35,082 bases of DNA from a virus. The DNA is taken from IMG/VR virus record IMGVR_UViG_3300022687_000016, positions 1-35,082 of that record; one strand, 5' to 3'. Within the stretch, counting starts at the first letter, position 1. Every line of letters starts with the position of its first letter. The notes beneath the pieces are model-generated. The model did not search any database and had not been told where the DNA came from. It saw only the letters and a program-made list of their open reading frames with translations. Positions 2,098 through 13,713 of this stretch are shown here, in pieces. The position numbers and the translations under genes are program-made.

Positions 2098-2453
2098 CCT
2101 TCCGCGCACCAGTCGTGGCGGTGACCGTCCCAGGCGACGGCCAGCCCGGCCGCGATGAGGTGTTCGCCTGCTTCTTCCCCGCCCACGAGGATCCGCGCCA
2201 GCGTTCGGCCATAGCGGTCTTCGCCCTCGCGCTCGATCGTCCATTGCCCGCCGGTCAGGAAGGCGGCGAGCTCGATCCGGGCGGTGACGGCGAGCTGACG
2301 CTCGGCGTCGCAGGCGGCGCGTCCGCCCATTTCCGGCGCGTCGATGCCGATCAGGCGGATGGTCTCGCCCGCGATCTCGACCGTGTCGCCATCGATCGTT
2401 CGGAAAGCCGGCGAGATCTGCAGCAAGGCCAGCGCGGTGAGGGTGGCAATCAC
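2094..2453 (-). CDS. Thermonuclease (SNase) family nuclease
   Basis: This 119-aa protein carries the staphylococcal nuclease core. It reads TIDGDTVEI (Asp21), RLIGIDAPE (Arg33, Asp38, Glu41) and DRYGRTLARI (Arg83), which correspond to the calcium-binding and catalytic residues of that family. It is a Ca-dependent endo/exonuclease family. The first 15 residues are hydrophobic (MIATLTALALLQISPA), a possible weak export signal without basic residues. The start is GTG, sharing GTGA with the repressor stop, so it should be made together with the repressor from the lysogenic transcript. Confidence 0.88.
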   Translation of the reverse strand: MIATLTALALLQISPAFRTIDGDTVEIAGETIRLIGIDAPEMGGRAACDAERQLAVTARIELAAFLTGGQWTIEREGEDRYGRTLARILVGGEEAGEHLIAAGLAVAWDGHRHDWCAEG

Positions 2454-3088
2454 CGCTTCGCCACTGAGGGGTCGGCGACCGATACGAAGGGCTGGGCCTT
2501 GACCAGTTCGACATCCTCGCGCAACGGGCTGCCGTCCCAGCTTTCCAGATTGTAGCGGCCGAATGTGTAGCCGCGGCGGACGACCTTGAAGAGCAGCTCG
2601 CCCGCCTTCGTCTCGACAATGCAGGCCTTGCCGATCACTTCGGCCGGGTCGATCGCGTCACGGTTGAGGCAATAGATGATCCAGCGGTCGGCGGCCGGGG
2701 GCATGGACAGGCCCCTTATCTCGTAGGCGACCAGGTCGGTGGAAGGCAGGATGCCGGGCGGATGGGCGACCTCGTAGAGCCCGTCATTCTCGCCCATCCC
2801 GTCCATCACCTGCACCGTTGCGCCCGCCCCGACGAAGCCCTTGACCCATATCCGCTTTTTCACAGGCTCGTAGGATTCACCGTAAAGCGCGGCAGGATTG
2901 AGGCCAAGGGCGGACGCAATCTTGCGCTCGTTTCTTGCGTTCAGCGTGTCGGAATAGCCGTTCAGGTAGGAGCGGATCGTTGCCGCGCTGACGCCGGTCG
3001 CGCGGGAAATAGCCGCGGCGCTGGTCAGGCCCGCGCCCGCCATCGTCCGTTTGAAGGCTTCGCGCCTGCGGTCGGCCCATTCGCTCAT
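2450..3088 (-). CDS. Phage repressor, HTH plus S24 LexA-like peptidase domain
   Basis: This is a 212-aa CI-like repressor. The N-terminal HTH spans residues 10-70 (AISRATGVSAATIRSYLNG). The C-terminal S24 domain has RGLSMPP with the serine nucleophile at 128 and LLFKVVRRG with the lysine at 168. A possible Ala-Gly cleavage site lies at 88-89 (VGAGATV), consistent with RecA-triggered self-cleavage. I chose the ATG at 3088 because it fits the family; an upstream ATG at 3145 would add 19 residues of poor sequence. No Shine-Dalgarno sequence is visible. It is divergent from the Cro-like gene, with a shared operator at 3156-3171. The proposed DNA target is TGATGA-N4-TCATCA. Confidence 0.88.
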   Translation of the reverse strand: MSEWADRRREAFKRTMAGAGLTSAAAISRATGVSAATIRSYLNGYSDTLNARNERKIASALGLNPAALYGESYEPVKKRIWVKGFVGAGATVQVMDGMGENDGLYEVAHPPGILPSTDLVAYEIRGLSMPPAADRWIIYCLNRDAIDPAEVIGKACIVETKAGELLFKVVRRGYTFGRYNLESWDGSPLREDVELVKAQPFVSVADPSVAKR

Positions 3089-3095
3089 GGACTGG

Positions 3096-3107
3096 CTTGT
3101 ACACAAG
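3096..3107. promoter_or_regulatory. Inverted repeat just upstream of the repressor start
   Basis: CTTGT-AC-ACAAG is a 12-bp inverted repeat ending eight bases before the repressor ATG. It differs from the TGATGA operator and could be a site for the Cro-like or another regulator. The role is inferred from position only. Confidence 0.35.
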
Positions 3108-3147
3108 AATCGGGCGCCCGCGTGCGGCGGGTTTCCAACGTTCATGG

Positions 3148-3176
3148 TTGACGAGTGATGAAAAATCATCATTCTC
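3148..3176 (+). promoter_or_regulatory. Rightward early promoter with repressor operator
   Basis: TTGACG (3148-3153), a 17-base spacer and ATTCTC (3171-3176) form a promoter. The spacer contains the operator TGATGA-AAAA-TCATCA (3156-3171). It matches the minus-strand promoter at 1251-1223 almost base for base from -35 through -10. The predicted start falls at about 3183, directly at the ATG of the Cro-like gene. Confidence 0.7.
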
Positions 3177-4495: not shown

Positions 4496-5005
4496 ATGTC
4501 TGACGGCTTCCTTTGTCCCGGCGACCGCCGGTCGCTGAAACAGGCGTTCTCGGTGGCCCTCAAAAAAGCCGGCGGGCAGTCGGCTGCCGCCGAGCACACG
4601 CGCGTCGATCAGACGACGCTGAGCCGCGCGGCCAGCTTTACCAATCCGGACTGCGCCGAGTGCTTCCCCGCCGCCGACACGGTGGTCGAGGTCGACCTGC
4701 TCGCCGGGGAGCCGGTGATGCTGCGCGCGCTGGCGCGCCTTCTGGGGCAGGCGCTGGTTCCGCTGCCGGTGATCGATGCCGCCGCGCCCGGCGGGGCGGA
4801 GGCGGCGCGTGTCGTCACCGAGCTGGGCCAGGTGCTGACCGCGCTCGGCCAGGCGCTGAGCGATGATGGCCGGGTCGGCTCGGTCGCCGAGATCGACGCC
4901 ATCCTGCCCGAACTGGACGACGGGGGCGATGCGATCGCCCGCCTGAAACACGTCCTGGTTCATCGCCGGGCGGCGCTGCTGGCTTCGGAGGGGCGTACGT
5001 CATGA
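4496..5005 (+). CDS. CII-like phage regulatory protein
   Basis: This 169-aa protein has an N-terminal HTH around residues 14-45 (LKQAFSVALKKAGGQSAAAEHTRVDQTTLSRAASF), followed by a conserved ECFPAADTVVEVDLLAGEP stretch and helices to the C-terminus. The layout matches a group of small phage activators or regulators loosely called CII-like. It is the first gene of the long rightward early operon. ATG 4496 follows a GGGGG; an out-of-frame ATG at 4491 is ignored. Palindromic repeat 2 (4520-4541) falls within its first 16 codons and encodes GDRRSLK. A regulatory role is inferred. Confidence 0.55.
   Translation: MSDGFLCPGDRRSLKQAFSVALKKAGGQSAAAEHTRVDQTTLSRAASFTNPDCAECFPAADTVVEVDLLAGEPVMLRALARLLGQALVPLPVIDAAAPGGAEAARVVTELGQVLTALGQALSDDGRVGSVAEIDAILPELDDGGDAIARLKHVLVHRRAALLASEGRTS
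4520..4541. repeat. Palindromic repeat family 2, copy 2
   Basis: GCGACCG-C-CGGTCGC (4521-4535) is a perfect palindrome followed by TGAAAC. It is the same element as 8931-8951 and lies inside the 5' end of the CII-like gene. Confidence 0.6.
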
Positions 5006-5193
5006 CCCGGCCCGGCTTTCCCCATACCCGCAAGCTGAAGCAGCGCCGCGCCGGGCATGGCGCGGGTGTGTGGTCGCTGGCCTTGGCCGCCGCCGTGCTG
5101 GGCGCGGTTCTGCTCGCCGTCATGGCGACCCTGCCGCGCCCCTTCGTGACGGACGCTTTCGCGCCCTCCTCAGGACAGGGGGATGAGCTGTGA
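5002..5193 (+). CDS. Small single-pass membrane protein
   Basis: This 63-aa protein has a basic N-terminus (HTRKLKQRR), one transmembrane helix (about residues 22-43, VWSLALAAAVLGAVLLAVMATL) and a short tail. The tail is encoded by the palindromic repeat at 5140-5180 (PSSGQG). It overlaps the previous gene with ATGA, and its TGA overlaps the GTG of the next. The function is unknown. Confidence 0.6.
   Translation: MTRPGFPHTRKLKQRRAGHGAGVWSLALAAAVLGAVLLAVMATLPRPFVTDAFAPSSGQGDEL
5140..5180. repeat. REP-like palindromic element, copy 1
   Basis: CCCTTCGTGACG, a variable middle, then CTCCTCAGGACAGGG. This is the host-type element also seen at 5573, 7059 and 9368. It forms the 3' end of the small membrane protein gene and adds the residues SSGQG. 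Confidence 0.7.
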
Positions 5194-5648
5194 GCGGGGC
5201 GGCGCAGATCTCCGCGACCTTCGACTGGCACCGGTCGCGCTTTACCGTCACCGGCTGGGCCGAGGCCGGGCGCTGGATCGCCGTGTCGGGCGTGGTCGCG
5301 CACATGGGTGCGGGCCAGTCTGGTCGCGCGGACGGTGATGATGCGCGGGCCATCGTCCAGGCCGCCGGCGTCGTGGCCGACTTTCTCGCCGACCTTTCCG
5401 ACGCCGCGCGGGCCGACCCGGACCGCGCCGCCAGCACGCTGCAGGATTTTGCCGAAGCCCTGAGCCGCACGCCGATGTCGGCCGCCTCGGCCCTGGGCGC
5501 TCTGCTCGCCGCGATGGCGGGGGCGGAGACCGGTTCCGATTCCAAGACCATTCAACCGGATCCCCGTCTTCACCCTTCGAGACGCGCCGATGGCGCTCCT
5601 CAGGACGGGCGGGAAAACGAGGAGGTTTCCCATGGCGATCGATCCTGA
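5190..5648 (+). CDS. Unknown 152-aa early protein ending in a repeat
   Basis: The start is GTG (GTGA overlap with the preceding stop). The N-terminal half looks like a beta-rich domain (ISATFDWHRSRFTVTGWAEAGRW), followed by a helical region (residues 50-110). No family was recognised. The last 25 residues are read through REP-like copy 2 (5573-5609), in a different frame from the other copies (GAPQDGR). The natural C-terminus may therefore have been replaced. It overlaps the next gene's Shine-Dalgarno sequence and start. Confidence 0.6.
   Translation: MSGAAQISATFDWHRSRFTVTGWAEAGRWIAVSGVVAHMGAGQSGRADGDDARAIVQAAGVVADFLADLSDAARADPDRAASTLQDFAEALSRTPMSAASALGALLAAMAGAETGSDSKTIQPDPRLHPSRRADGAPQDGRENEEVSHGDRS
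5573..5609. repeat. REP-like palindromic element, copy 2
   Basis: CCCTTCGAGACGCGCC-GAT-GGCGCTCCTCAGGACGGG is the copy closest to the chromosomal consensus; the GCGCC/GGCGC halves can pair. It sits in the 3' end of the gene at 5190. Confidence 0.75.
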
Positions 5649-5832
5649 CGCGCCGTCACACGTGGCGTGCCGCATGCCGCCGCCCCTGCGGCTGGAAGTG
5701 CTGGAGCGGGCAAAGCGGATGCAGGCGCGGTCCACCGCCGCGAGTCTGAAACAGGCCCGCGCCGGATCCTATGACGACGCGGCCTGGTGCCGCGCCGTCG
5801 GCGGGCAAACGGCACGGGACGGGAGGGCGTGA
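5632..5832 (+). CDS. Unknown 66-aa early protein
   Basis: This small, basic, helical protein (PPPLRLEVLERAKRMQARSTAASLKQARAGSYDDAAWCRAVGG) has no recognised family. ATG 5632 has a strong Shine-Dalgarno sequence (GAGGAGG at 5619-5625). Its start overlaps the end of the previous gene by 17 bp, and its stop overlaps the next start (TGATG). Confidence 0.6.
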   Translation: MAIDPDAPSHVACRMPPPLRLEVLERAKRMQARSTAASLKQARAGSYDDAAWCRAVGGQTARDGRA

Positions 5833-6041
5833 TGCTGGCGCTGCAGATCCTCGCCGCCGCTTTCATGGCGCTCGGCGTCTGGCTGGCGATCGGGTTGGCG
5901 ATCGCGTGGCGGTCGGCGCTGTCGCTGAACGGCCATTCGGCCCTGTTGTTCGTGATCTTCTGGCCGGTGCCCGTCGCGGCATGGGCCGGAGACGGGCTCG
6001 CCGAGTTTGCCCGCGCCATCTGGGGGGCGGTTGAGCGATGA
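5832..6041 (+). CDS. Small two-helix membrane protein
   Basis: This 69-aa protein has two hydrophobic segments (about residues 2-24 and 33-52, the second with FVIFWPVPVAAWAG). It is coupled to both neighbours by TGATG and ATGA overlaps. The function is unknown; membrane location is predicted from hydrophobicity. Confidence 0.6.
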   Translation: MLALQILAAAFMALGVWLAIGLAIAWRSALSLNGHSALLFVIFWPVPVAAWAGDGLAEFARAIWGAVER

Positions 6042-7111
6042 CCCAGATTGAATGGACGCATATGCCCGGGTTCAAGGGCGAGACCTGGAACCCGGTGGTC
6101 GGGTGCCAGATCGTCTCGAAGGGCTGCACGAATTGCTATGCGATGCGGCAGGCCGCGCGCCTGCTCGATGGCAATCCCAAGACGCCACACTATGCCGGTA
6201 CGACTCGCCAAGTGAACGGGCAGGCGGTCTGGACCGGCAAGATCGGGATGGCGCCTGACACCGCCTTCAACGCGCCGCTGCGGGCCAAGGCGCCGCGATG
6301 CTATTTCGTGAACTCGATGGGCGACCTCTTTGCCGAGGGCGTGCCGGATGGCTGGATCGACCGGGCCTTCGCGGTGATGGCCCTGACGCCGCAGCACCGC
6401 TACCTGATCCTGACGAAGCGGCCCGACCGGATGCGGGCGTATCTGTCTGCGGAGTGCCGCGGGCGCGAGATCACGGCTGCGATGTTTGGTCTGCGGGCGG
6501 GCGAACCGTTGAGCTACGCCGGGCCTTGGCCCCTGAAGAATGTCTGGCTGGGCGTCAGCGTCGAGGACCAGGCGGCGGCGGACAGCCGTATTCCCGACTT
6601 GCTGGCGACGCCGGCGGCGGTGCGCTTTATCTCTGCCGAACCGTTGCTCGGTCCGGTCGATCTGACATCGATCCGCCGGCGCGAAGCCGAGGGCTTCATG
6701 CGTCCGCTCGACGGGCGGTTGAGCCGCATCGACTGGGTGATCGCCGGCGGTGAGTCCGGCAAGGGCGCGCGGCCGATGCACCCGGACTGGGCGCGGGGGC
6801 TGCGTGACCAGTGCGCGGCGGCGGGTGTGGCGTTTTTCCTGAAACAGTGGGGGCAATGGCTGCCGATCTATGACCGGGATCGAGAGGATCCGGACTGGCA
6901 GCATGTCGGCGAGGCGGAACGTCTCTCGCCGAAGGGCCGCTGGCTGAACCTGGAGGGCGGTCACGGGTTTCATGGCGAGCGGGTCGTTCGTGTTGATCGC
7001 GTCGGCAAGACCGCCGCTGGCGCGCGCCTGGATGGCGTCGAGCACCGCGCCTTTCCCGCACTTCGCGACGCGGGCGATGCCCGCTCCTCAGGACAGGGAG
7101 GCGCGGCATGA
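6038..7111 (+). CDS. DUF5131 (phage Gp37/Gp68) family protein
   Basis: This 357-aa protein opens with IEWTHMPGFKGETWNPVVGC and a cysteine cluster C23-x6-C30-x2-C33-Y (GCTNCYAMRQA). It continues with FVNSMGDLF, LILTKRPDRM, NVWLGVSVED, ISAEPLLGPVDL and WVIAGGESGKGARPMHPDW, all hallmarks of the phage Gp37/Gp68 family. The cysteine cluster resembles radical-SAM type sites; the chemistry is unproven. The family C-terminus (VGKTAAGARLDGVEH) is followed by about 20 extra residues encoded by REP-like copy 3 (ALRDAGDARSSGQGGAA). It overlaps both neighbours with ATGA. Confidence 0.9.
   Translation: MTQIEWTHMPGFKGETWNPVVGCQIVSKGCTNCYAMRQAARLLDGNPKTPHYAGTTRQVNGQAVWTGKIGMAPDTAFNAPLRAKAPRCYFVNSMGDLFAEGVPDGWIDRAFAVMALTPQHRYLILTKRPDRMRAYLSAECRGREITAAMFGLRAGEPLSYAGPWPLKNVWLGVSVEDQAAADSRIPDLLATPAAVRFISAEPLLGPVDLTSIRRREAEGFMRPLDGRLSRIDWVIAGGESGKGARPMHPDWARGLRDQCAAAGVAFFLKQWGQWLPIYDRDREDPDWQHVGEAERLSPKGRWLNLEGGHGFHGERVVRVDRVGKTAAGARLDGVEHRAFPALRDAGDARSSGQGGAA
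7059..7098. repeat. REP-like palindromic element, copy 3
   Basis: CACTTCGCGACGC, a variable middle, then CTCCTCAGGACAGGG. It forms the last codons of the DUF5131 gene, beyond its conserved C-terminus, and ends ten bases before the next start. Confidence 0.7.
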
Positions 7112-7854
7112 CTGACCGTCCGATCCTGTTTACCGCGCCGATGATCCGGGCGCTGCTCGAGGGCCGCAAGACGCAGACGCGGCGGGTGATCAAGAATCGC
7201 GGTGCGCTTCCGGATTATCGCGGTCCGCGCGGATGTGAGCGCGACCCGGCGATGTGGGGCTGGGAGGACGGCGCGACCGGCGAGCACATCGCTCTCGTCG
7301 CCGCGGTTCAGGGTGACCCGGTGTGGAATGGTGGCTTCGCCGTCGGCGACCGGCTGTGGGTGAAGGAGGGCTGGTCCGGTGCGCTGTCCTTTGATCGCGT
7401 GAAGCCGCGCGATCTGCCGCGAACCGCCATTTTTTATGAGGCTGACGGAGCTAAGAGCTTCGAAGATTTTGCGCCGGGCAAGTCACGGTCGTCCCGCTTC
7501 ATGCCGCGATGGGCGAGCCGCCTGACGCTGGTCGTCACCAAGGTCCGCGTTCAGCGGGTGCAGGATATCAGCGAGGAGGATGCCAAGGCGGAGGGGATTT
7601 CTGTCTTTCCGCTTCAAGACGCCGACGATCCGTCGGCCTGGTGGCAGAGCGCGCCGGGTGAAAACCAGTCTCGAACGGCTCGTGGGTCGTTCCACTCTCT
7701 CTGGGATTCCCTGAACGCCAAGCGCGGCTTCGGCTGGGATACGAACCCGTGGGTCGTGGCCGTCAGCTTCGATGTCCACTGCGCGAATATCGATCAGCTT
7801 GGGGATCGGCGCGGGTTGCTGCCCGCGCCATGCTGGCAGGTGATGCCATGCTGA
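7108..7854 (+). CDS. ASCH-like phage protein
   Basis: This 248-aa protein opens with RPILFTAPMIRALLEGRKTQTRRVIK, the signature of phage ASCH-like or 'morphogenetic' proteins. LWVKEGW, VTKVRVQRVQDISEEDAKAEGI and WDTNPWVVAVSFDV follow in the usual order. ASCH domains have an RNA-binding PUA-like fold; some are nucleases or read modified nucleic acids. The C-terminus extends about 20 residues beyond the usual NIDQLG end, into the start of the next gene. It often accompanies DUF5131, as here. Its stop overlaps the next start (ATGCTGA). Confidence 0.8.
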   Translation: MTDRPILFTAPMIRALLEGRKTQTRRVIKNRGALPDYRGPRGCERDPAMWGWEDGATGEHIALVAAVQGDPVWNGGFAVGDRLWVKEGWSGALSFDRVKPRDLPRTAIFYEADGAKSFEDFAPGKSRSSRFMPRWASRLTLVVTKVRVQRVQDISEEDAKAEGISVFPLQDADDPSAWWQSAPGENQSRTARGSFHSLWDSLNAKRGFGWDTNPWVVAVSFDVHCANIDQLGDRRGLLPAPCWQVMPC

Positions 7855-8342
7855 CCGCGCGGGAGAGGGAGTGCCTGCAACTGATCTGCGCCCGGCTCGA
7901 CCGGGACGGCGTCGCGCCGAGCTTTGCCGAGATGATGGCCGGGTTGGGGCTGGCGTCGAAGTCTGGCGTGCACCGGCTGATAAGCGGGCTTGAAGACAAG
8001 GGTTATATCCGGCGGCTGAGAGGACGCGAGCGCGCGATCGACGTGCTGAAGCGCCCGGAAGGCCGGGTGGAGATCGCCGAACAGGCGGGCTTTCCGCAGG
8101 GCCGACTGGCGATGGCGGAAAAGCTGATCGCCCACTTCCTCGATGCGACGGACCCCGGTGAACGCTTGGGTCTGGCGGCGTTCATGGACGCTGAGTTCGA
8201 CCCGGCCGGGTCGCCGGGCATGACGCTGCGCGATGTGCGCACCGCATCGATGGTGTTCGTCCGCCGCGGTCCCGTGGCCCAGACGGCCGGAGCGATCGGC
8301 CTGGCGCGCGTGAAGCGGTGCGGGCAGGGGGTGGTGCGATGA
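7848..8342 (+). CDS. LexA-type winged-helix DNA-binding protein without peptidase domain
   Basis: The N-terminal 65 residues (LTARERECLQLICARLDRDGVAPSFAEMMAGLGLASKSGVHRLISGLEDKGYIRRL) are the LexA DNA-binding fold. The remaining 100 residues lack the S24 Ser and Lys motifs, so it cannot self-cleave like LexA. I chose ATG 7848, although the frame is open from 7749, because it starts the domain and overlaps the previous stop. It could compete at SOS boxes or act as an early-gene regulator. It belongs to a run of DNA-binding-domain proteins. Confidence 0.8.
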   Translation: MLTARERECLQLICARLDRDGVAPSFAEMMAGLGLASKSGVHRLISGLEDKGYIRRLRGRERAIDVLKRPEGRVEIAEQAGFPQGRLAMAEKLIAHFLDATDPGERLGLAAFMDAEFDPAGSPGMTLRDVRTASMVFVRRGPVAQTAGAIGLARVKRCGQGVVR

Positions 8343-8596
8343 CCGCTGCCCCGATGACCCGATACTGGATTCGGTTCGACGTGATCGGGCCGCGGCTGGA
8401 AACGCTGTCCGACACCGGCTGGCGCGCCCGCGAGGGGAATTGGCGCGAGGCCATCATGCGCCTGATCGACCGATTCAGTTATCACCCCGGGCCGTGCGAC
8501 GATGATGAAGGTCAGCTGATCTCTCTTCTGCCGGGCGGATTGGGCCTGAAACGCGTTTGCGTTCGGTTGACCCCGCCGGAAGGCGGTGCGGCATGA
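8339..8596 (+). CDS. Unknown 85-aa protein
   Basis: This short protein (YWIRFDVIGPRLETLSDTGWRAREGNWREAIMRLIDRF) looks alpha/beta with a beta-strand start. No family was recognised. It is coupled by ATGA overlaps to the LexA-like and GcrA-like genes. Confidence 0.6.
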   Translation: MTAAPMTRYWIRFDVIGPRLETLSDTGWRAREGNWREAIMRLIDRFSYHPGPCDDDEGQLISLLPGGLGLKRVCVRLTPPEGGAA

Positions 8597-10248
8597 CCGC
8601 CGCCGCCCGTCTCCCTGAGGTCCGGATCAAGGCGTTCTCGCCGAAGGCGATCGATGTGGCCACGCGCGCCGCGGCGGCGCATTTCCGGGTGCGGGAGGGG
8701 GCGGAGCTGCCGCCCCCGGCCCGGCGCGCGGCGGTGTTCGGCCTGTCCATCTTCTTCCGCACGGGCGGGCCGGAGGCGGCGGTTCTGGCCGGCGTGGCGG
8801 CCGATACCGAGGCGGGCGCGGCCCTGCTCGCCCCCGGCTATATCAGCGGGGAGGCGGCGGGGAAGGCAGCGCTGTCGGTCGCCGATGCGCTGAACTGGGC
8901 CTTCGTGTGGAAGCGTGAATCGGAAACTCAACGACCGCCGGTCGCTGAAACGCCTGTGCCGAACGCGCCGCGCAAGACGCGCGCCGAGGGCTGGTCCGAT
9001 GCGGAGCTGGAGACGCTGCGCGCGGGACGGGCGGCGGGCAAGAAGGTGGCGGCGCTGATGGCCGACCTGCCCGGGCGGACGGAAGGCGCGATCCATACCA
9101 AGATCCGCGATCTGAAACTGCCGCCCGCCAAGGTGGAACGCGACACGCCCGGGGCCTGGAGCGAGGCGGAGAATGCCATCGTCGCGCGCGGCCGGGCGCG
9201 GGGCGAAAAGTACACGGTGATTGCTGCGCGCCTGCCGGGGCGCAAGCCGGCGTCCTGCCGTGTCCAGGCGCAGAAGCTGGGCATCACGAAACGGCGCACG
9301 CCCGGCAGCGAAGCCGTGGCCGTGGCCCCTGTCACCGAGCGGTCGATCCACCATCCCGCCAAAGGCGCCCTTCGAGACGGCAGCGAAGCCGCCTCCTCAG
9401 GACAGGGCGCCGGCGGGCCGTGGAGCGACGGCGAGCGCGACGCACTGAAGGCCGCGCGGCTGAGCGGCGAGCGATGGACCGAGACGCTGAAGCGCTTCCC
9501 GGGCCGGACGATGAATGGCGTGCGCGCGGAGTTTGGCCGCCTGACAGCCGATGATCCGGACCTGCTGGAGCGGGCCCGCGAGGCCAGTGCCCGCATGCGC
9601 GCCGGGGGCAGGGGGCCACGATGGACGCCGGACGAGGATGCCATCGTGCGCGCCGGGGTCGAGGCCGGGCGATCCGACGCGGACATCGCGGCGGATCTGA
9701 AGCGCCGCACGCCGGAGGCGGTGCGCAGCCGGGCCAAGGTGCTGCGCATTCACACCCGACCGACCGAGGCCGAAAAGCTGGCCGGGGCGCAGGCGGCCGT
9801 GATCTGGACGCCGGCGGACGATGCGGTGATCGCCGAGATCGCCGCGAAGGGGTACAGCGCCGACACCGCCATCGCGCGCCTGCCGCGCCACGACCGGGAC
9901 ATGGTCCGCGCGAAGCTGGCCATGGCCGAGCGGCGCGCACGGCGGGAGGCGCATCCGAGGGGCGAGGCGATCTCGTCCGGCCCGGCCATCGAAGGGGCGG
10001 AAAACCGGGGTGTGAACGCGGCCCTGTCGCTGGCCCCGAAACAGTGCCGCTGGCCGGTCGGCGATCCGCGCGAACCGGACTTCCATTTCTGCGGCGCGGC
10101 GAAGGTGCGGGGCCAGTACTGCGCCGCCCATGCGGCGATGGCCTACCCCCCGAAACAGAAGCGCCGCCGGGCGAGGCAGGACGCCGCGGCCGCGCTCGAT
10201 TCCCTTCAAGCCCTGCGCGAAGCCCGGATCAGGAGGGCAGTGCAATGA
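8593..10248 (+). CDS. Multi-repeat GcrA-like protein with five SANT/Myb-like DNA-binding repeats
   Basis: This 551-aa protein has an N-terminal helical domain (residues 10-105) that loosely resembles a degenerate DnaA domain IV. Five related repeats of about 44 residues follow at 133-176, 188-231, 276-317, 343-386 and 404-444. Each begins W-S/T-x-x-E/D and ends with a recognition-helix pattern (GRTEGAIHTKIRDLKL type), as in the GcrA N-terminus. The C-terminus (residues 484-518: CRWPVGDPREPDFHFCGAA, YCAAHAAMAY) is the GcrA sigma-70-interacting domain with its Cys residues kept. Host GcrA has one HTH and about 170 residues. Two palindromic repeats lie in linkers (8931-8951, 9368-9407). It probably redirects sigma-70 holoenzyme; that is inference. 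Confidence 0.85.
   Translation: MTAAARLPEVRIKAFSPKAIDVATRAAAAHFRVREGAELPPPARRAAVFGLSIFFRTGGPEAAVLAGVAADTEAGAALLAPGYISGEAAGKAALSVADALNWAFVWKRESETQRPPVAETPVPNAPRKTRAEGWSDAELETLRAGRAAGKKVAALMADLPGRTEGAIHTKIRDLKLPPAKVERDTPGAWSEAENAIVARGRARGEKYTVIAARLPGRKPASCRVQAQKLGITKRRTPGSEAVAVAPVTERSIHHPAKGALRDGSEAASSGQGAGGPWSDGERDALKAARLSGERWTETLKRFPGRTMNGVRAEFGRLTADDPDLLERAREASARMRAGGRGPRWTPDEDAIVRAGVEAGRSDADIAADLKRRTPEAVRSRAKVLRIHTRPTEAEKLAGAQAAVIWTPADDAVIAEIAAKGYSADTAIARLPRHDRDMVRAKLAMAERRARREAHPRGEAISSGPAIEGAENRGVNAALSLAPKQCRWPVGDPREPDFHFCGAAKVRGQYCAAHAAMAYPPKQKRRRARQDAAAALDSLQALREARIRRAVQ
8931..8951. repeat. Palindromic repeat family 2, copy 3
   Basis: ACGACCGCCGGTCGCTGAAAC, sharing 20 bases with the copy at 4520. 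It encodes RPPVAET in the linker before the first repeat of the GcrA-like protein. Confidence 0.6.
9368..9407. repeat. REP-like palindromic element, copy 4
   Basis: CCCTTCGAGACGG, a variable middle, then CTCCTCAGGACAGGG. It is in frame in the linker between DNA-binding repeats 2 and 3 of the GcrA-like protein, encoding ALRDGSEAASSGQG. Confidence 0.75.
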
Positions 10249-10595
10249 GGGATTACGGTGTTTTTCAGGTGATCGCCGATCGGTGCCGGGCGGAAGCGGA
10301 GGCGGCAGAACGGTTTTCGCTGAACCGGGGGCTGTTCATCGCGCTTTGTGCGCCTGTGCCATGGCGCGTTCGCACGCTTCGCGCGATGCCGCGATGGGTT
10401 CGTCGGGCGTGGTTGGCGCTGGTCGAGCATTGCCTGTCAGTGGCACGGGACGGCCTCGACTACGTCGACGTTTCGACCAGCGCTGGCGGTGGGATCAGGG
10501 TGTCGGTCGCCGTTCCATTTTCGCAGGCTCGCCGCGTGCGGTCGCTTTACGAGCTGGCGGACGAAGCCCGGCTGCTCGCGAGGGGTCAGGCATGA
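10245..10595 (+). CDS. Unknown 116-aa protein between the GcrA-like and DnaA-like genes
   Basis: This protein is rich in Arg, Trp and helices (PWRVRTLRAMPRWVRRAWLALVEHCL), with a beta-rich C-terminal half (YVDVSTSAGGGIRVSVAVPF). No family was recognised. The ATGA overlaps on both sides show that it is part of the same translated unit as the neighbouring DNA-binding proteins. Confidence 0.65.
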   Translation: MRDYGVFQVIADRCRAEAEAAERFSLNRGLFIALCAPVPWRVRTLRAMPRWVRRAWLALVEHCLSVARDGLDYVDVSTSAGGGIRVSVAVPFSQARRVRSLYELADEARLLARGQA

Positions 10596-11476
10596 GCGTC
10601 ACGAACCTAGCCGACTACCGCAAGCGGGTGCGCCCGCGCGTCGAGCCCGGCGCGCTGGACGAGGCACAGGCGGCCGCGAACGATGCCTTCGACCGGGGCG
10701 CGGACCTGCCCAAGGGGATGGCCTTTCGCCTGGTCATCGAGATCGGCAGCGATGGTTCGGTCACGAAGGACTGGGCGGTTTGCCGCGAGGGCGGACCCTA
10801 CTCCCCCCGCACGCTGGAGGCCGCCCATGCCGCCGTCCTGGCCGCGCAAGGGGAGATCGGCGCGGCGGCGCTGGCCGATGGCCTGAAAGCCCGGATCGTG
10901 GCGGTGCTGGCGCAGGTGTGCGAGCGCCACGGCGTGACGCTGGCGCAACTGAAGCGTCGGCGGGAGCGCGCCCCGCACATCGTGGCGGCGCGCCGGGATG
11001 CGGTTCAGAGCCTGATGGCGATACCGGGGCCGAAGCGCACACCGGGCAGTCAGGACCGTCCGGCGCTGAGCCTGTCGCGGATCGGGAGAATTCTGGGCGG
11101 GTTCAGCCATGCCTCGATCTCGAAATACGCGGCCGGGCCGCGACCGGCGAACCGCAGGGCCGCGCCGGTGCCGCAGCCGCGCCATGCGAAATGGACGCCG
11201 CAGGACTGGGCGGCGGCCTTTGCGAAGGCTGAAGCCGAGTTCGAACGGATCTGCGCGGCTCACGGCATGCCGCCCGCGCGGGTGCGGGGAAAGTCCAGGC
11301 GGCGGGAAGTCGTCGCGGTGCGGCGCGAGATCGCCCGGGCGCTGAACGCGATTCCGGGACCGGCGGGCAAGCCCGCCATCACCCTGACTCGCATCGGCAA
11401 GATGCTGGGCGGGCGGGACCATTCCACCGTGTTCAACCTGATCCATGGCAAGCGCCGGAAGGGGGCATTGTCATGA
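10592..11476 (+). CDS. Protein with two tandem DnaA domain IV-like DNA-binding modules
   Basis: This 294-aa protein has no AAA+ ATPase. Module 1 (residues 100-180) has RRRERAPHIVAARRDAV, then LSRIGRILGGFSHASI. Module 2 (residues 210-288) has RGKSRRREVVAVRREIA, then LTRIGKMLGGRDHSTV. The second contains the DnaA signature GGRDHSTV (273-280), which contacts the DnaA box; the first is a degenerate copy. An unrelated N-terminal domain (1-95) contains a beta segment (FRLVIEIGSDGSVTKDWAVC). It may bind DnaA boxes of the phage or host origin, either to recruit or to block DnaA. I chose ATG 10592 for the ATGA overlap. Confidence 0.85.
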   Translation: MSVTNLADYRKRVRPRVEPGALDEAQAAANDAFDRGADLPKGMAFRLVIEIGSDGSVTKDWAVCREGGPYSPRTLEAAHAAVLAAQGEIGAAALADGLKARIVAVLAQVCERHGVTLAQLKRRRERAPHIVAARRDAVQSLMAIPGPKRTPGSQDRPALSLSRIGRILGGFSHASISKYAAGPRPANRRAAPVPQPRHAKWTPQDWAAAFAKAEAEFERICAAHGMPPARVRGKSRRREVVAVRREIARALNAIPGPAGKPAITLTRIGKMLGGRDHSTVFNLIHGKRRKGALS

Positions 11477-11883
11477 CCGCGCTGCGCGCCCTTCACCGGA
11501 TCCCGGACGCCGCGAACGATGCCGGGTCGCTGCGCGAGCGGATCGACGCGCTGGAGGCCGAGGTCGCCTACTGGAAAGAGCTGGCCACGGGCAGCGACCT
11601 GACCGCGCCGCCGGAGTGGGCGATGACGCCGGTGCAGGCCTTCCTGGCCGGGCAGCTGGCAAGGCGCGGCATCATCCGCCGCCAGACCGTGGCGCAGATG
11701 TGGCCCGGCAGCGCGGGCGAGGATGTGCCGCTGAAGACGGTGGATGTGCATGTCTGCCGCCTCAGGAAGCGGCTGAAGGCCCTTGGCGTGGAACTGACCA
11801 CCGTGCGGGGCGTCGGCTGGTCCGTCAGCGCGGCCGACCGCGCGCGCCTGATGGCGGCGATGGCGCCGGGAGGTGAGGGATGA
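11473..11883 (+). CDS. OmpR/CtrA-type winged-helix DNA-binding protein without receiver domain
   Basis: This 136-aa protein has a coiled-coil stretch (residues 18-37, SLRERIDALEAEVAYWKEL) followed by a winged helix of the response-regulator C-terminal type (residues 50-118). It shows TPVQAFLAGQL, TVDVHVCRLRKRL and TTVRGVGWSVS, the recognition helix and wing signature. There is no phosphoacceptor receiver. In Alphaproteobacteria the best-known member with this fold is the cell-cycle regulator CtrA, but the domain alone does not prove CtrA specificity. It overlaps the DnaA-like gene with ATGA. Confidence 0.82.
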   Translation: MTALRALHRIPDAANDAGSLRERIDALEAEVAYWKELATGSDLTAPPEWAMTPVQAFLAGQLARRGIIRRQTVAQMWPGSAGEDVPLKTVDVHVCRLRKRLKALGVELTTVRGVGWSVSAADRARLMAAMAPGGEG

Positions 11884-12089: not shown

Positions 12090-12291
12090 GTACGGGGTAG
12101 CAGCCGTACGGTTCATAGGCGCCAGACCGCGCCAGAGAACCCGCTGAGCGCGGTTTTCTCATGGTCGGGCGCAATGGGGCACCTTCGGGTGCGCCGGTTT
12201 CCTATGAGCCGGTCTGCTAACCTGTTGTCGCCCGGCCACCCGTTTAGCAGCGGTGGGCCGGGGTTCACGCGAACTCATAGGAGCCCGGCCG
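12090..12291 (+). ncRNA. Structured leader RNA, C4 antisense-like, that can hide the next gene's ribosome binding site
   Basis: The strand 12201-12222 (CCTATGAGCC...CTGCTAACC) is complementary to two places. Upstream, TAGCAG (12098-12103) and GGTTCATAGG (12110-12119) close a helix around two hairpins: 12124-12132 with 12148-12156, and a C(TTCG)G tetraloop at 12176-12195. Downstream, it pairs with TTAGCAG (12244-12250) and CTCATAGGAG (12274-12283). The last contains the Shine-Dalgarno sequence of the gene at 12292. A further hairpin (12231-12240 with 12252-12262) puts TTAGCAG in its loop. Phage P1/P7 C4 RNA uses the same logic with two short complementary blocks. The match to C4 is by layout, not by sequence search. 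Confidence 0.65.
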
Positions 12292-12600
12292 ATGCCGCGC
12301 ATCACCGAACAATTCCCCCAAGACCATTGGCAGCACCTGCCCTTCGTGCGCGATCTGCGCGCGGGGCGGCATTTCTGGACAGTCACGCCGTCCGGCGACT
12401 GGATTCAGGACGCCGCGACCGGCGCGCATTATGCGCAACTGACGCTGAACACGATGTGGCGGCACGGCGATCCGGGCCAGCTTCTGGACCGCATCCTGTT
12501 GCAGATCGCAACCGGAAAACGGCCGCTGCACAGCCGGCCATTGCCCCCGGAAACGGCCTTCATTTCCGGCTTCGCGCGGGGACTGCTTCAAATCAAATAG
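12292..12600 (+). CDS. Unknown 102-aa protein under RNA leader control
   Basis: This soluble protein (LPFVRDLRAGRHFWTVTPSGDWIQDAATGAHYAQLTLNTMWRHGDPGQLLDRILLQIATGKRPL) has no family that I recognise. ATG 12292 follows AGGAG (12279-12283) at good spacing, and that site is paired in the predicted leader structure. In P1/P7 the gene in this place is the antirepressor ant. By analogy this product may act on the repressor, but nothing in its sequence shows that. Confidence 0.65.
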   Translation: MPRITEQFPQDHWQHLPFVRDLRAGRHFWTVTPSGDWIQDAATGAHYAQLTLNTMWRHGDPGQLLDRILLQIATGKRPLHSRPLPPETAFISGFARGLLQIK

Positions 12601-12613
12601 CGGAGGCCGGGCG

Positions 12614-12874
12614 ATGAGCTACGAGCTGTCTCAACGGGTGGTGCCCATCCGGATGGGCACGTGCGCCCAAAAGCTGGTCCTGTTCCTGGCGGCATTTCAC
12701 GCGAGTCCGCGTGGCATCTGTCACATGACGCGGTCTGAATTGGCCGAGGCGGCGAGTTGCAGTGTGCGGACCGTCGACCGGGCCACGGCCTTCTGGACCC
12801 AGAGGGGCCTGATGTGGCGCACGCCAACCGGTGCGCTTCGCGTGCGCATTCCGAAGAAGGGAGCGCGCGGATGA
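12614..12874 (+). CDS. Small winged-helix DNA-binding protein
   Basis: This 86-aa protein contains a winged helix (residues 20-80: QKLVLFLAAFHASPRG, MTRSELAEAASCSVRTVDRATAFWTQRGLMWRTPTGALRVRIPKK), the same type as the N-terminus of the next gene. A GGAGG Shine-Dalgarno sequence precedes ATG 12614. It overlaps the replication gene by ATGA, which suggests a joint role at the phage origin or in early control. Confidence 0.75.
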   Translation: MSYELSQRVVPIRMGTCAQKLVLFLAAFHASPRGICHMTRSELAEAASCSVRTVDRATAFWTQRGLMWRTPTGALRVRIPKKGARG

Positions 12875-13713
12875 GCCACAGGCATAACGACTGGGCCACC
12901 GAGGCCGTGTGTGAATCGGGTTCGGAAAAGGCGGTCTTGATGGTGATCGCCAACTATGTCGGCGTCGACGGCACGTGCTATCCGGGCCAAGACACTTTGG
13001 CGCGCAAGGCCTGCGTCAGCGTGAAAACGGTCGAACGCGCATTGAAGGCTTTCGAGGCGCGCGGGTGGATCGAGCGCAGGTTGCGCCGCCGAAAAGACGG
13101 GTCGCGCACATCGGATTTGATCATCATCACGGCTGTTCGTGCCGACGAGGCTTTTGAGGCGGCACAACCCGACAATTTGTCTGGTAGTGCCGAGGTGCCA
13201 ACCCGACATCCTGTCCAAAGTCACCCGACATCCTGTCCAAAGTCACCCGACACCATGTCGGGGCTCACTACGTTTGAACCCCCAGAGGAATCCCCAGTTG
13301 AAGAACCGCGCGCGATGCGCGCGCGCAAATCCACCTCTCCGAAATCGGAACGCCGGAAGGCGACCCGGCTGCCCGAGGGGTGGGAGCCGCCGGACGCATT
13401 CATCGAGGAGGCGGTGAGCATGGGCTTGACCGAGGCGGAAGCGCGGGCCGAGGCGCACCGGATGGCGAACTGGTCACGGGGCAGTCCGAACGGGGCGAAG
13501 CTCGATTGGCGGGCAACCTGGCGAAACTGGCTGACACGCAAACTGGAAGAAAAATCCCATGGACGACACGGCAGGACAGGCAATGACGAGCGGCACCGCG
13601 CCGCTTTCGGGCGTGCTCTTCGTGCCTTTGGCGGAGGGCCGGGCGATGGTGCGGGAGCGGGGCCTGACGGCGGCGGTGCGCCGCCACGCCTCGGACTTGA
13701 AGGCCCGCCTTGA
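12871..13713 (+). CDS. Phage replication initiator-like protein (HTH plus DnaT-like C-terminus)
   Basis: The N-terminal winged helix (residues 15-75: SEKAVLMVIANYVGVDGTCYPGQDTLARKACVSVKTVERALKAFEARGWIERR) is the HTH_36 type found in replication protein O-like initiators. A variable linker contains a duplicated 20-bp segment (13206-13245, HPVQSHPTSCPKSHP region). The C-terminal part (LPEGWEPPDAFIEEAVSMGL...WRATWRNWLTRKL) resembles DnaT-type DNA-binding tails. The frame runs 155 bp into the next gene, and its last 50 residues are low-complexity Gly/Ala/Arg. A lost stop near 13560 is likely. Confidence 0.75.
   Translation: MSHRHNDWATEAVCESGSEKAVLMVIANYVGVDGTCYPGQDTLARKACVSVKTVERALKAFEARGWIERRLRRRKDGSRTSDLIIITAVRADEAFEAAQPDNLSGSAEVPTRHPVQSHPTSCPKSPDTMSGLTTFEPPEESPVEEPRAMRARKSTSPKSERRKATRLPEGWEPPDAFIEEAVSMGLTEAEARAEAHRMANWSRGSPNGAKLDWRATWRNWLTRKLEEKSHGRHGRTGNDERHRAAFGRALRAFGGGPGDGAGAGPDGGGAPPRLGLEGPP

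Follow-up and report, generated by a model that had tools for sequence, protein, structure and literature searches.

Introduction

The GcrA family of cell cycle regulators is alphaproteobacterial, and its members combine a DNA-binding domain, a linker, and a sigma2-binding domain (PMC7403470). A GcrA homolog encoded by Caulobacter phage phiCbK and its relatives has been proposed by the authors describing it to alter the replicative state of the host (PMC3556154), and GcrA is also listed in Sinorhizobium phiLM21-like prophages (PMC12429752). The connection runs in the opposite direction as well: host CtrA acts on the promoters of alphaproteobacterial phages, in what has been called "lytic deferment" (PMC9437464), and Jorvik depends on host CtrA (PMC10589892). 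Here, we analyze a 35,082-base viral DNA, IMG/VR record IMGVR_UViG_3300022687_000016 (hereafter, the window, that is, the entire stretch analyzed), in which a six-gene cassette at positions 7848-11883 brings together a LexA DNA-binding domain, a GcrA-like protein with five helix-turn-helix (HTH) repeats, a tandem DnaA domain IV protein, and an OmpR/PhoB-type winged helix.

Taken separately, the parts of this cassette are already known from phages, namely, GcrA (phiCbK), "CtrA" (Roseobacter phage RDJL Phi 1), and the C-terminal domain of DnaA (rhizobial phages). Both phiCbK and the window encode a GcrA-family protein with a sigma-interacting domain, but that of phiCbK contains a single HTH and is solitary, no LexA, DnaA, or winged-helix gene having been found to accompany it, whereas the protein in the window has five repeats. 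Similarly, RDJL Phi 1, Paracoccus phage R3, and the Rhodobacter Rc phages also encode an OmpR-family DNA-binding domain, annotated as CtrA, CzcR-like, or HTH, but, unlike the window, lack the GcrA, LexA DNA-binding domain, and DnaA domain IV genes. The standalone DnaA C-terminal domains of RHph_N28_2, Ssp-JY42, and ctOK67, along with NCBIfam PRK06030, resemble the protein in the window in consisting of domain IV without the AAA+ domain; however, these are single copies, whereas the domain is duplicated in the window, with the reading motif of one copy diverged. As variants of these known kinds, the four-part cassette with its recurrence, the GcrA with five repeats, and the protein with a duplicated DnaA domain IV look new; no description of the combined set was found in the open-access literature.

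Truncated host regulators in one cassette

The four recognizable proteins of the cassette had been assigned to their families from the sequence alone in a first-pass annotation, and profile searches confirm the LexA, GcrA, DnaA domain IV, and response-regulator C-terminal families. In the LexA-like protein (7848..8342, plus strand; 164 amino acids (aa)), the DNA-binding domain is complete, with its N-terminal winged helix covered by PF01726 (residues 2-63; E-value 2.5e-14, 53.2 bits against a cut-off of 23.7), and is 53.7% identical over 82 aa to LexA of Cereibacter azotoformans. The recognition helix, SKSGVHRLI, differs in one residue from the SKSGIHRLI of Cereibacter and Sinorhizobium LexA. 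The LexA peptidase has no match in this protein: the remaining 92 residues do not align to it, and the full-length LexA model TIGR00498 scores 54 bits against a cut-off of 111, so that the LexA-type HTH without a peptidase, as originally described, stands. Thus, the phage protein shares the N-terminal winged helix and the recognition helix with alphaproteobacterial LexA but lacks the peptidase/dimerization domain and, accordingly, would not undergo RecA-driven cleavage. Standalone LexA DNA-binding proteins with the SKSGV helix are also encoded on plasmids, Bradyrhizobium elkanii pUSDA31-2 (L150:2992-3348) and a second one (L151:3001-3348), neither of which carries GcrA or the winged helix within 3 kb of the gene.

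The GcrA-like protein (8593..10248, plus strand; 551 aa) consists of an N-terminal region without an assigned domain, five Myb/GcrA-like HTH repeats that, in the repeat alignment, begin at residues 134, 189, 277, 344, and 405, and a C-terminal sigma-interacting domain (residues ~470-528). It is matched by PF07750 (GcrA; 3.9e-17) and PF00249 (Myb; 1.9e-12), and residues 470-527 match the solved sigma-interacting domain of Caulobacter GcrA (PDB 5yix; 9e-12), with the C, P, G, D, F, C, G, Y, C, and H columns conserved; the suggestion that the sigma-binding part was retained is, therefore, borne out. A conserved motif, CxWPxGDP, is found in this C-terminal part. The N-terminal half is a different matter. 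The protein has five repeats in place of the single N-terminal HTH of GcrA, none of the five contains the GcrA recognition helix RNAVIGKxHRLGL, and the NCBIfam GcrA equivalog model scores only 54.8 bits against a cut-off of 280. The same protein also matches phrog_323 (D5-like; 5e-20).

The DnaA-like protein (10592..11476, plus strand; 294 aa) contains two copies of domain IV, at ~10892-11119 and ~11222-11464, as first proposed. Copy 2 is recognized by PF08299 (residues 219-282; 2.8e-11); copy 1 is missed by Pfam but scores 31.8 bits with a profile free of window sequences (the best of 200 shuffles reached 8.4) and aligns with copy 2 in BLASTP (7.9e-9). Structure prediction gives confident helical domains for both copies, and the model of the protein matches DnaA domain IV (PDB 1j1v) with a probability of 1.0 and a root-mean-square deviation of 1.2 over 74 columns. 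A phmmer search of the PDB with the full protein returned artificial repeat proteins only. R399, D433, and H434 make base contacts in the E. coli DnaA complex. Equivalents of all three, counted along the E. coli sequence of 1j1v, are present in copy 2, whereas copy 1 carries GGFSHASI where GGRDHTTV is expected, so that the RDHT reading motif is gone. There is no match to AAA+ (domain III) across the 294 aa.

The last protein of the cassette (11473..11883, plus strand; 136 aa) contains an OmpR/PhoB-type winged helix. PF00486 (Trans_reg_C) matches residues 71-116 at 2e-6, barely above the cut-off; the AlphaFold model, with a pLDDT of 75, matches the DNA-binding domains of AdeR, SaeR, ArlR, and PhoB with probabilities of 0.99-1.00, at Foldseek E-values that all exceed 0.001. 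The receiver domain has no match in this protein; a long N-terminal helix, probably a coiled coil, is predicted in its place. The description of a receiver-less OmpR-type winged helix thus holds, but the CtrA-type label is not supported: CtrA as the family was rejected, the CtrA model giving an E-value of 0.056 compared with 3.6e-6 for the best one, TctD, such that the protein is OmpR/PhoB/TctD-like. Homologs of this protein adjoin GcrA in other phages. A receiver-less relative of this winged helix in another phage (L081:6993-7370; helix IVDVFICKLRKKL) does have CtrA as its best NCBIfam match (2.1e-13), with a GcrA gene ~2.7 kb downstream.

Recurrence of the cassette in unrelated phages

We surveyed virus contigs with relatives of the GcrA-like or DnaA domain IV proteins, scanning 50 records with the four Pfam families and then a further 37 records, 21 of them viral contigs retrieved through TerL or Myb repeats. 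When the LexA-like, winged-helix, orphan, DnaA-like, and TerL proteins served as single-sequence queries, no closely related sister phage turned up in the collections searched, and the survey therefore rests on distant relatives. Among these, the genes are not simply scattered and unrelated, although one or two of the four is the usual number in GcrA phages. In one contig (L112, record G064), LexA, GcrA, DnaA domain IV, and the winged helix occur in the same order as in the window, on one strand, within 1.4 kb (9229-10632), as separate small genes followed by an MT-A70-like methyltransferase, read from the sequence, and DnaB. Three of the four families are found together in additional backgrounds: LexA and GcrA with an AAA+-less DnaA composed of domains I and IV, all within 2.3 kb, in L063; GcrA, LexA, and the winged helix within 1.6 kb in L064; and GcrA, the winged helix, a DnaB-like gene, and DnaA domain IV within 4.7 kb in Synechococcus phage Ssp-JY42 (PP438432). 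In L073, the winged helix directly follows GcrA, and Caulobacter phage DMCA has GcrA alone. Altogether, pairs or larger subsets occur in about six unrelated phage backgrounds; with the cassette genes set aside, the only BLASTP match between the window and these loci is that of its replication initiator to L088.

The LexA DNA-binding domain was detected in 7 of the 41 GcrA-positive records and in none of the 44 GcrA-negative ones (Fisher p = 0.005, with kinship ignored), and in every positive record, it lies within 2.5 kb of GcrA. These records are not independent, five of those with LexA and GcrA forming a single Mu-like lineage with at least 50 pairwise open reading frame matches, and the GcrA-negative controls are shorter on average. 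Counted by lineage, LexA adjoins GcrA in four backgrounds (the window being one), the winged helix lies within 3 kb of GcrA in six, and DnaA domain IV within 5 kb in three. On seven alphaproteobacterial plasmids, there are no LexA, DnaA, or winged-helix neighbors within 5 kb of GcrA. That an otherwise unrelated phage carries this set in an identical order suggests a shared toolkit that would override host cell cycle and SOS control.

Several of the surveyed loci have features of their own. The domain I and IV DnaA of the Mu-like phage (L063:8503-9291) matches PF11638 (1.5e-5), PF08299 (1.1e-28), and TIGR00362 (5.1e-36). We considered and rejected the possibility that GcrA replaces Mor in the Mu-like relatives: there, an apparent Mor-like gene follows GcrA. 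A complete DNA polymerase III beta clamp gene (L064:13926-15137) lies a few kb past the GcrA-LexA-winged helix run, and Paracoccus phage Pyei1 likewise has an annotated clamp gene. Two phages labeled as infecting Synechococcus, PP438432.1 and OM868079.1, both encode GcrA, and the former also the DnaA C-terminal domain; the GcrA family being alphaproteobacterial, this host assignment may be mistaken.

The early operon and the phage

The cassette itself consists of consecutive genes, as the first-pass annotation had it, each overlapping the next by 4 bp, but the count is six rather than five, two of them without a known domain: orphans of 85 aa (8339..8596, plus strand; 4-bp overlaps on both sides) and 116 aa (10245..10595, plus strand), neither with a Pfam, PHROG, or NCBIfam match. 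Nor does the operon start at 7848. The overlapping genes extend back to 4496, so that the operon spans 4496-11883, and its upstream part (4496..7854, plus strand), with short overlaps between genes, encodes a CII-like activator (4496-5005; phrog_101, 9.5e-10), small proteins, a DUF5131 protein (6038-7111; PF07505, 1.5e-87), and an ASCH-like protein (7108-7854; phrog_874, 6.7e-57). Short stretches of the DNA of the DUF5131/ASCH-like pair (6038-7854) are 72-84% identical to phages of very different hosts.

Directly after the cassette lies a C4 antisense RNA (12157..12243, plus strand; Rfam RF01695, 75 bits against a gathering threshold of 45). Its positions 12193-12208 are complementary to 12274-12289, at the ribosome-binding site ahead of the ATG at 12292; also on the C4 RNA side, 12228-12247 is complementary to 12602-12614, at the ribosome-binding site ahead of the ATG at 12614, and to 12630-12641. 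As in P1 immI, this arrangement would provide antisense control, here of genes preceding the O-like initiator. The O-like replication initiation genes follow (12614..13713, plus strand; phrog_4617, phrog_1032, and phrog_391), with the initiator itself at 12871-13713; a repeat search near these genes found no iterons.

A CI-like repressor (2450..3172, minus strand; phrog_4, 9.3e-12), divergent from the early operon, indicates that the phage, which is lambda-like, is temperate. The structural genes recognized include TerS, TerL, portal, protease/major head, tape measure, and tail fiber J; no integrase was seen among the genes searched, and the record is, for that reason, possibly incomplete. The host is likely an alphaproteobacterium, given that the LexA piece is closest to alphaproteobacterial LexA, that the GcrA family is alphaproteobacterial, and that GANTC, the CcrM site, is depleted. 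Indeed, among the 16 gapped palindromes, none is depleted as strongly in the record as GANTC (53 sites compared to 134 expected, z -7.2). A TerL scan of GTDB contigs yielded deltaproteobacterial metagenome-assembled genomes only.

Candidate binding sites in the phage DNA

Searches of the window for DnaA, CtrA, and LexA boxes found nothing clearly above chance. At up to one mismatch, the record contains neither the DnaA box TTATCCACA nor the CtrA-type TTAA-N7-TTAA; a relaxed DnaA-box pattern gave two matches, both outside the operon; and the LexA-type box GTTC-N7-GTTC has a single exact match, within the tape-measure gene, and none in intergenic regions. Because the phage lacks such boxes, host DNA appears the likelier target of the LexA and DnaA readers, but the absences favor it only weakly, few sites being expected by chance. 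The distribution of GANTC is different. Its depletion is confined to coding DNA (43 sites observed compared with 122 expected), whereas 10 sites remain between genes, where about 12 are expected; these include sites 16 and 88 bp upstream of CI, 91 bp upstream of the early operon, 23 and 60 bp upstream of TerS, and 65 bp upstream of the tape-measure gene. This intergenic enrichment was noticed post hoc (p = 0.016).

Discussion

The reading that we tentatively favor, while holding it short of probable, is that of an early-lytic cassette whose products are DNA-binding proteins of host origin, blind to cellular signals and acting on host-type sites. Under this scenario, the proteins would be made early in infection and would bind independently of RecA, ATP, and phosphorylation. 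The LexA and DnaA pieces would occupy host SOS boxes and DnaA boxes regardless of cell signals, keeping the SOS genes and further initiation of chromosome replication in check; the winged helix, which cannot be phosphorylated because it lacks the receiver, would occupy OmpR-family sites; and the GcrA-like protein would recruit the sigma70 RNA polymerase to a new promoter set via its five HTH repeats. The sum would be the uncoupling of transcription and replication from the host cell cycle, to the benefit of the phage. Such a joint host-takeover role, inferred originally from the domain identities, appears plausible, all the more so as four further regulators seem needless for a lambda-like switch in which CI, CII, and C4 control are already present. 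As in lytic deferment, the life cycle of the phage would be tied to host cell cycle regulators, but there, a host regulator acts on phage promoters, whereas the phage in the window itself encodes the regulator pieces.

The premise that each protein keeps its DNA-binding part and drops the regulated part survives to a degree: the regulated domains are indeed lost, and the contact residues of the host proteins are conserved in the LexA helix and in DnaA copy 2, but not in DnaA copy 1 or in the GcrA-like repeats. Several further observations count against action on host sites. With no GcrA recognition helix in its repeats, the GcrA-like protein may not read host GcrA sites; the LexA DNA-binding domain alone binds weakly without the dimerization domain, unless the new tail dimerizes; the search upstream of the operon revealed no sigma70-consensus promoter; in most GcrA phages, just one or two of the four genes are present, and accordingly, a joint function is not obligatory; and the GANTC sites retained ahead of CI, the early genes, TerS, and the tape-measure gene fit regulation of phage promoters.

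The last of these observations leads to a serious rival, action on the promoters of the phage itself, which we consider a real possibility. The cassette would then be part of the phage's own regulatory cascade, with the GcrA-like protein as a sigma70-recruiting middle/late activator, the LexA piece playing a Cro-like role, the DnaA piece serving as an accessory origin binder, and the winged helix as a switch. The location between cII and the replication genes is where lambda-like phages place regulators, DnaA domain IV genes adjoin replication genes in other phages, and the changes in the HTH repeats of the GcrA-like protein hint at a site of its own; with its readers changed, this protein may bring the sigma70 polymerase to phage promoters. 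Yet, host specificity persists in the LexA helix and in copy 2 of DnaA while the corresponding boxes are missing between the phage genes, the GANTC pattern that would support the cascade is a post hoc observation, and in the Mu-like lineage, GcrA seems to stand beside the Mor-like gene instead of replacing it. A mixed answer, with both host and phage targets, is quite possible.

It is rather improbable that the adjacency has no joint meaning, the early regions of alphaproteobacterial phages simply gathering small HTH genes by recombination. The prevalence of only one or two of the four families in GcrA phages is what such gathering predicts, and the winged-helix phages of Rhodobacter, Roseobacter, and Paracoccus, as well as the phages with the DnaA C-terminal domain, mostly lack the other families. 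However, random gathering does not readily explain why L112 and the window share four families, their order, and the strand, why three of the four recur in further unrelated backgrounds, or why the LexA DNA-binding domain is absent from all GcrA-negative records. A module for superinfection or prophage competition, which would occupy sites common to related prophages or repress the host SOS response against induction of a co-resident prophage, seems highly improbable. A LexA piece that has the host recognition helix but cannot be cleaved would presumably dampen the SOS response, yet such a module leaves the DnaA and GcrA parts unexplained.

Returning to the favored reading of a signal-blind cassette directed at host-type sites, its broader form, in which unrelated alphaproteobacterial phages repeatedly assemble a LexA/GcrA/DnaA/OmpR-CtrA module that detaches SOS, replication initiation, and cell cycle transcription from their signals, is doubtful. 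Descriptions of GcrA in phages date back to 2012, and "CtrA" appears in phage annotations, each so far as a lone curiosity. The presence of truncated Caulobacter-type cell cycle and SOS regulators in one cassette, ordered alike in unrelated phages, would suggest that phages hit the whole circuit at once. The protein set is small and testable (in L112, four genes in 1.4 kb) and could reveal the host controls that have to be silenced by a temperate phage; its members may also be natural dominant-negative tools against DnaA, LexA, and GcrA in alphaproteobacteria.

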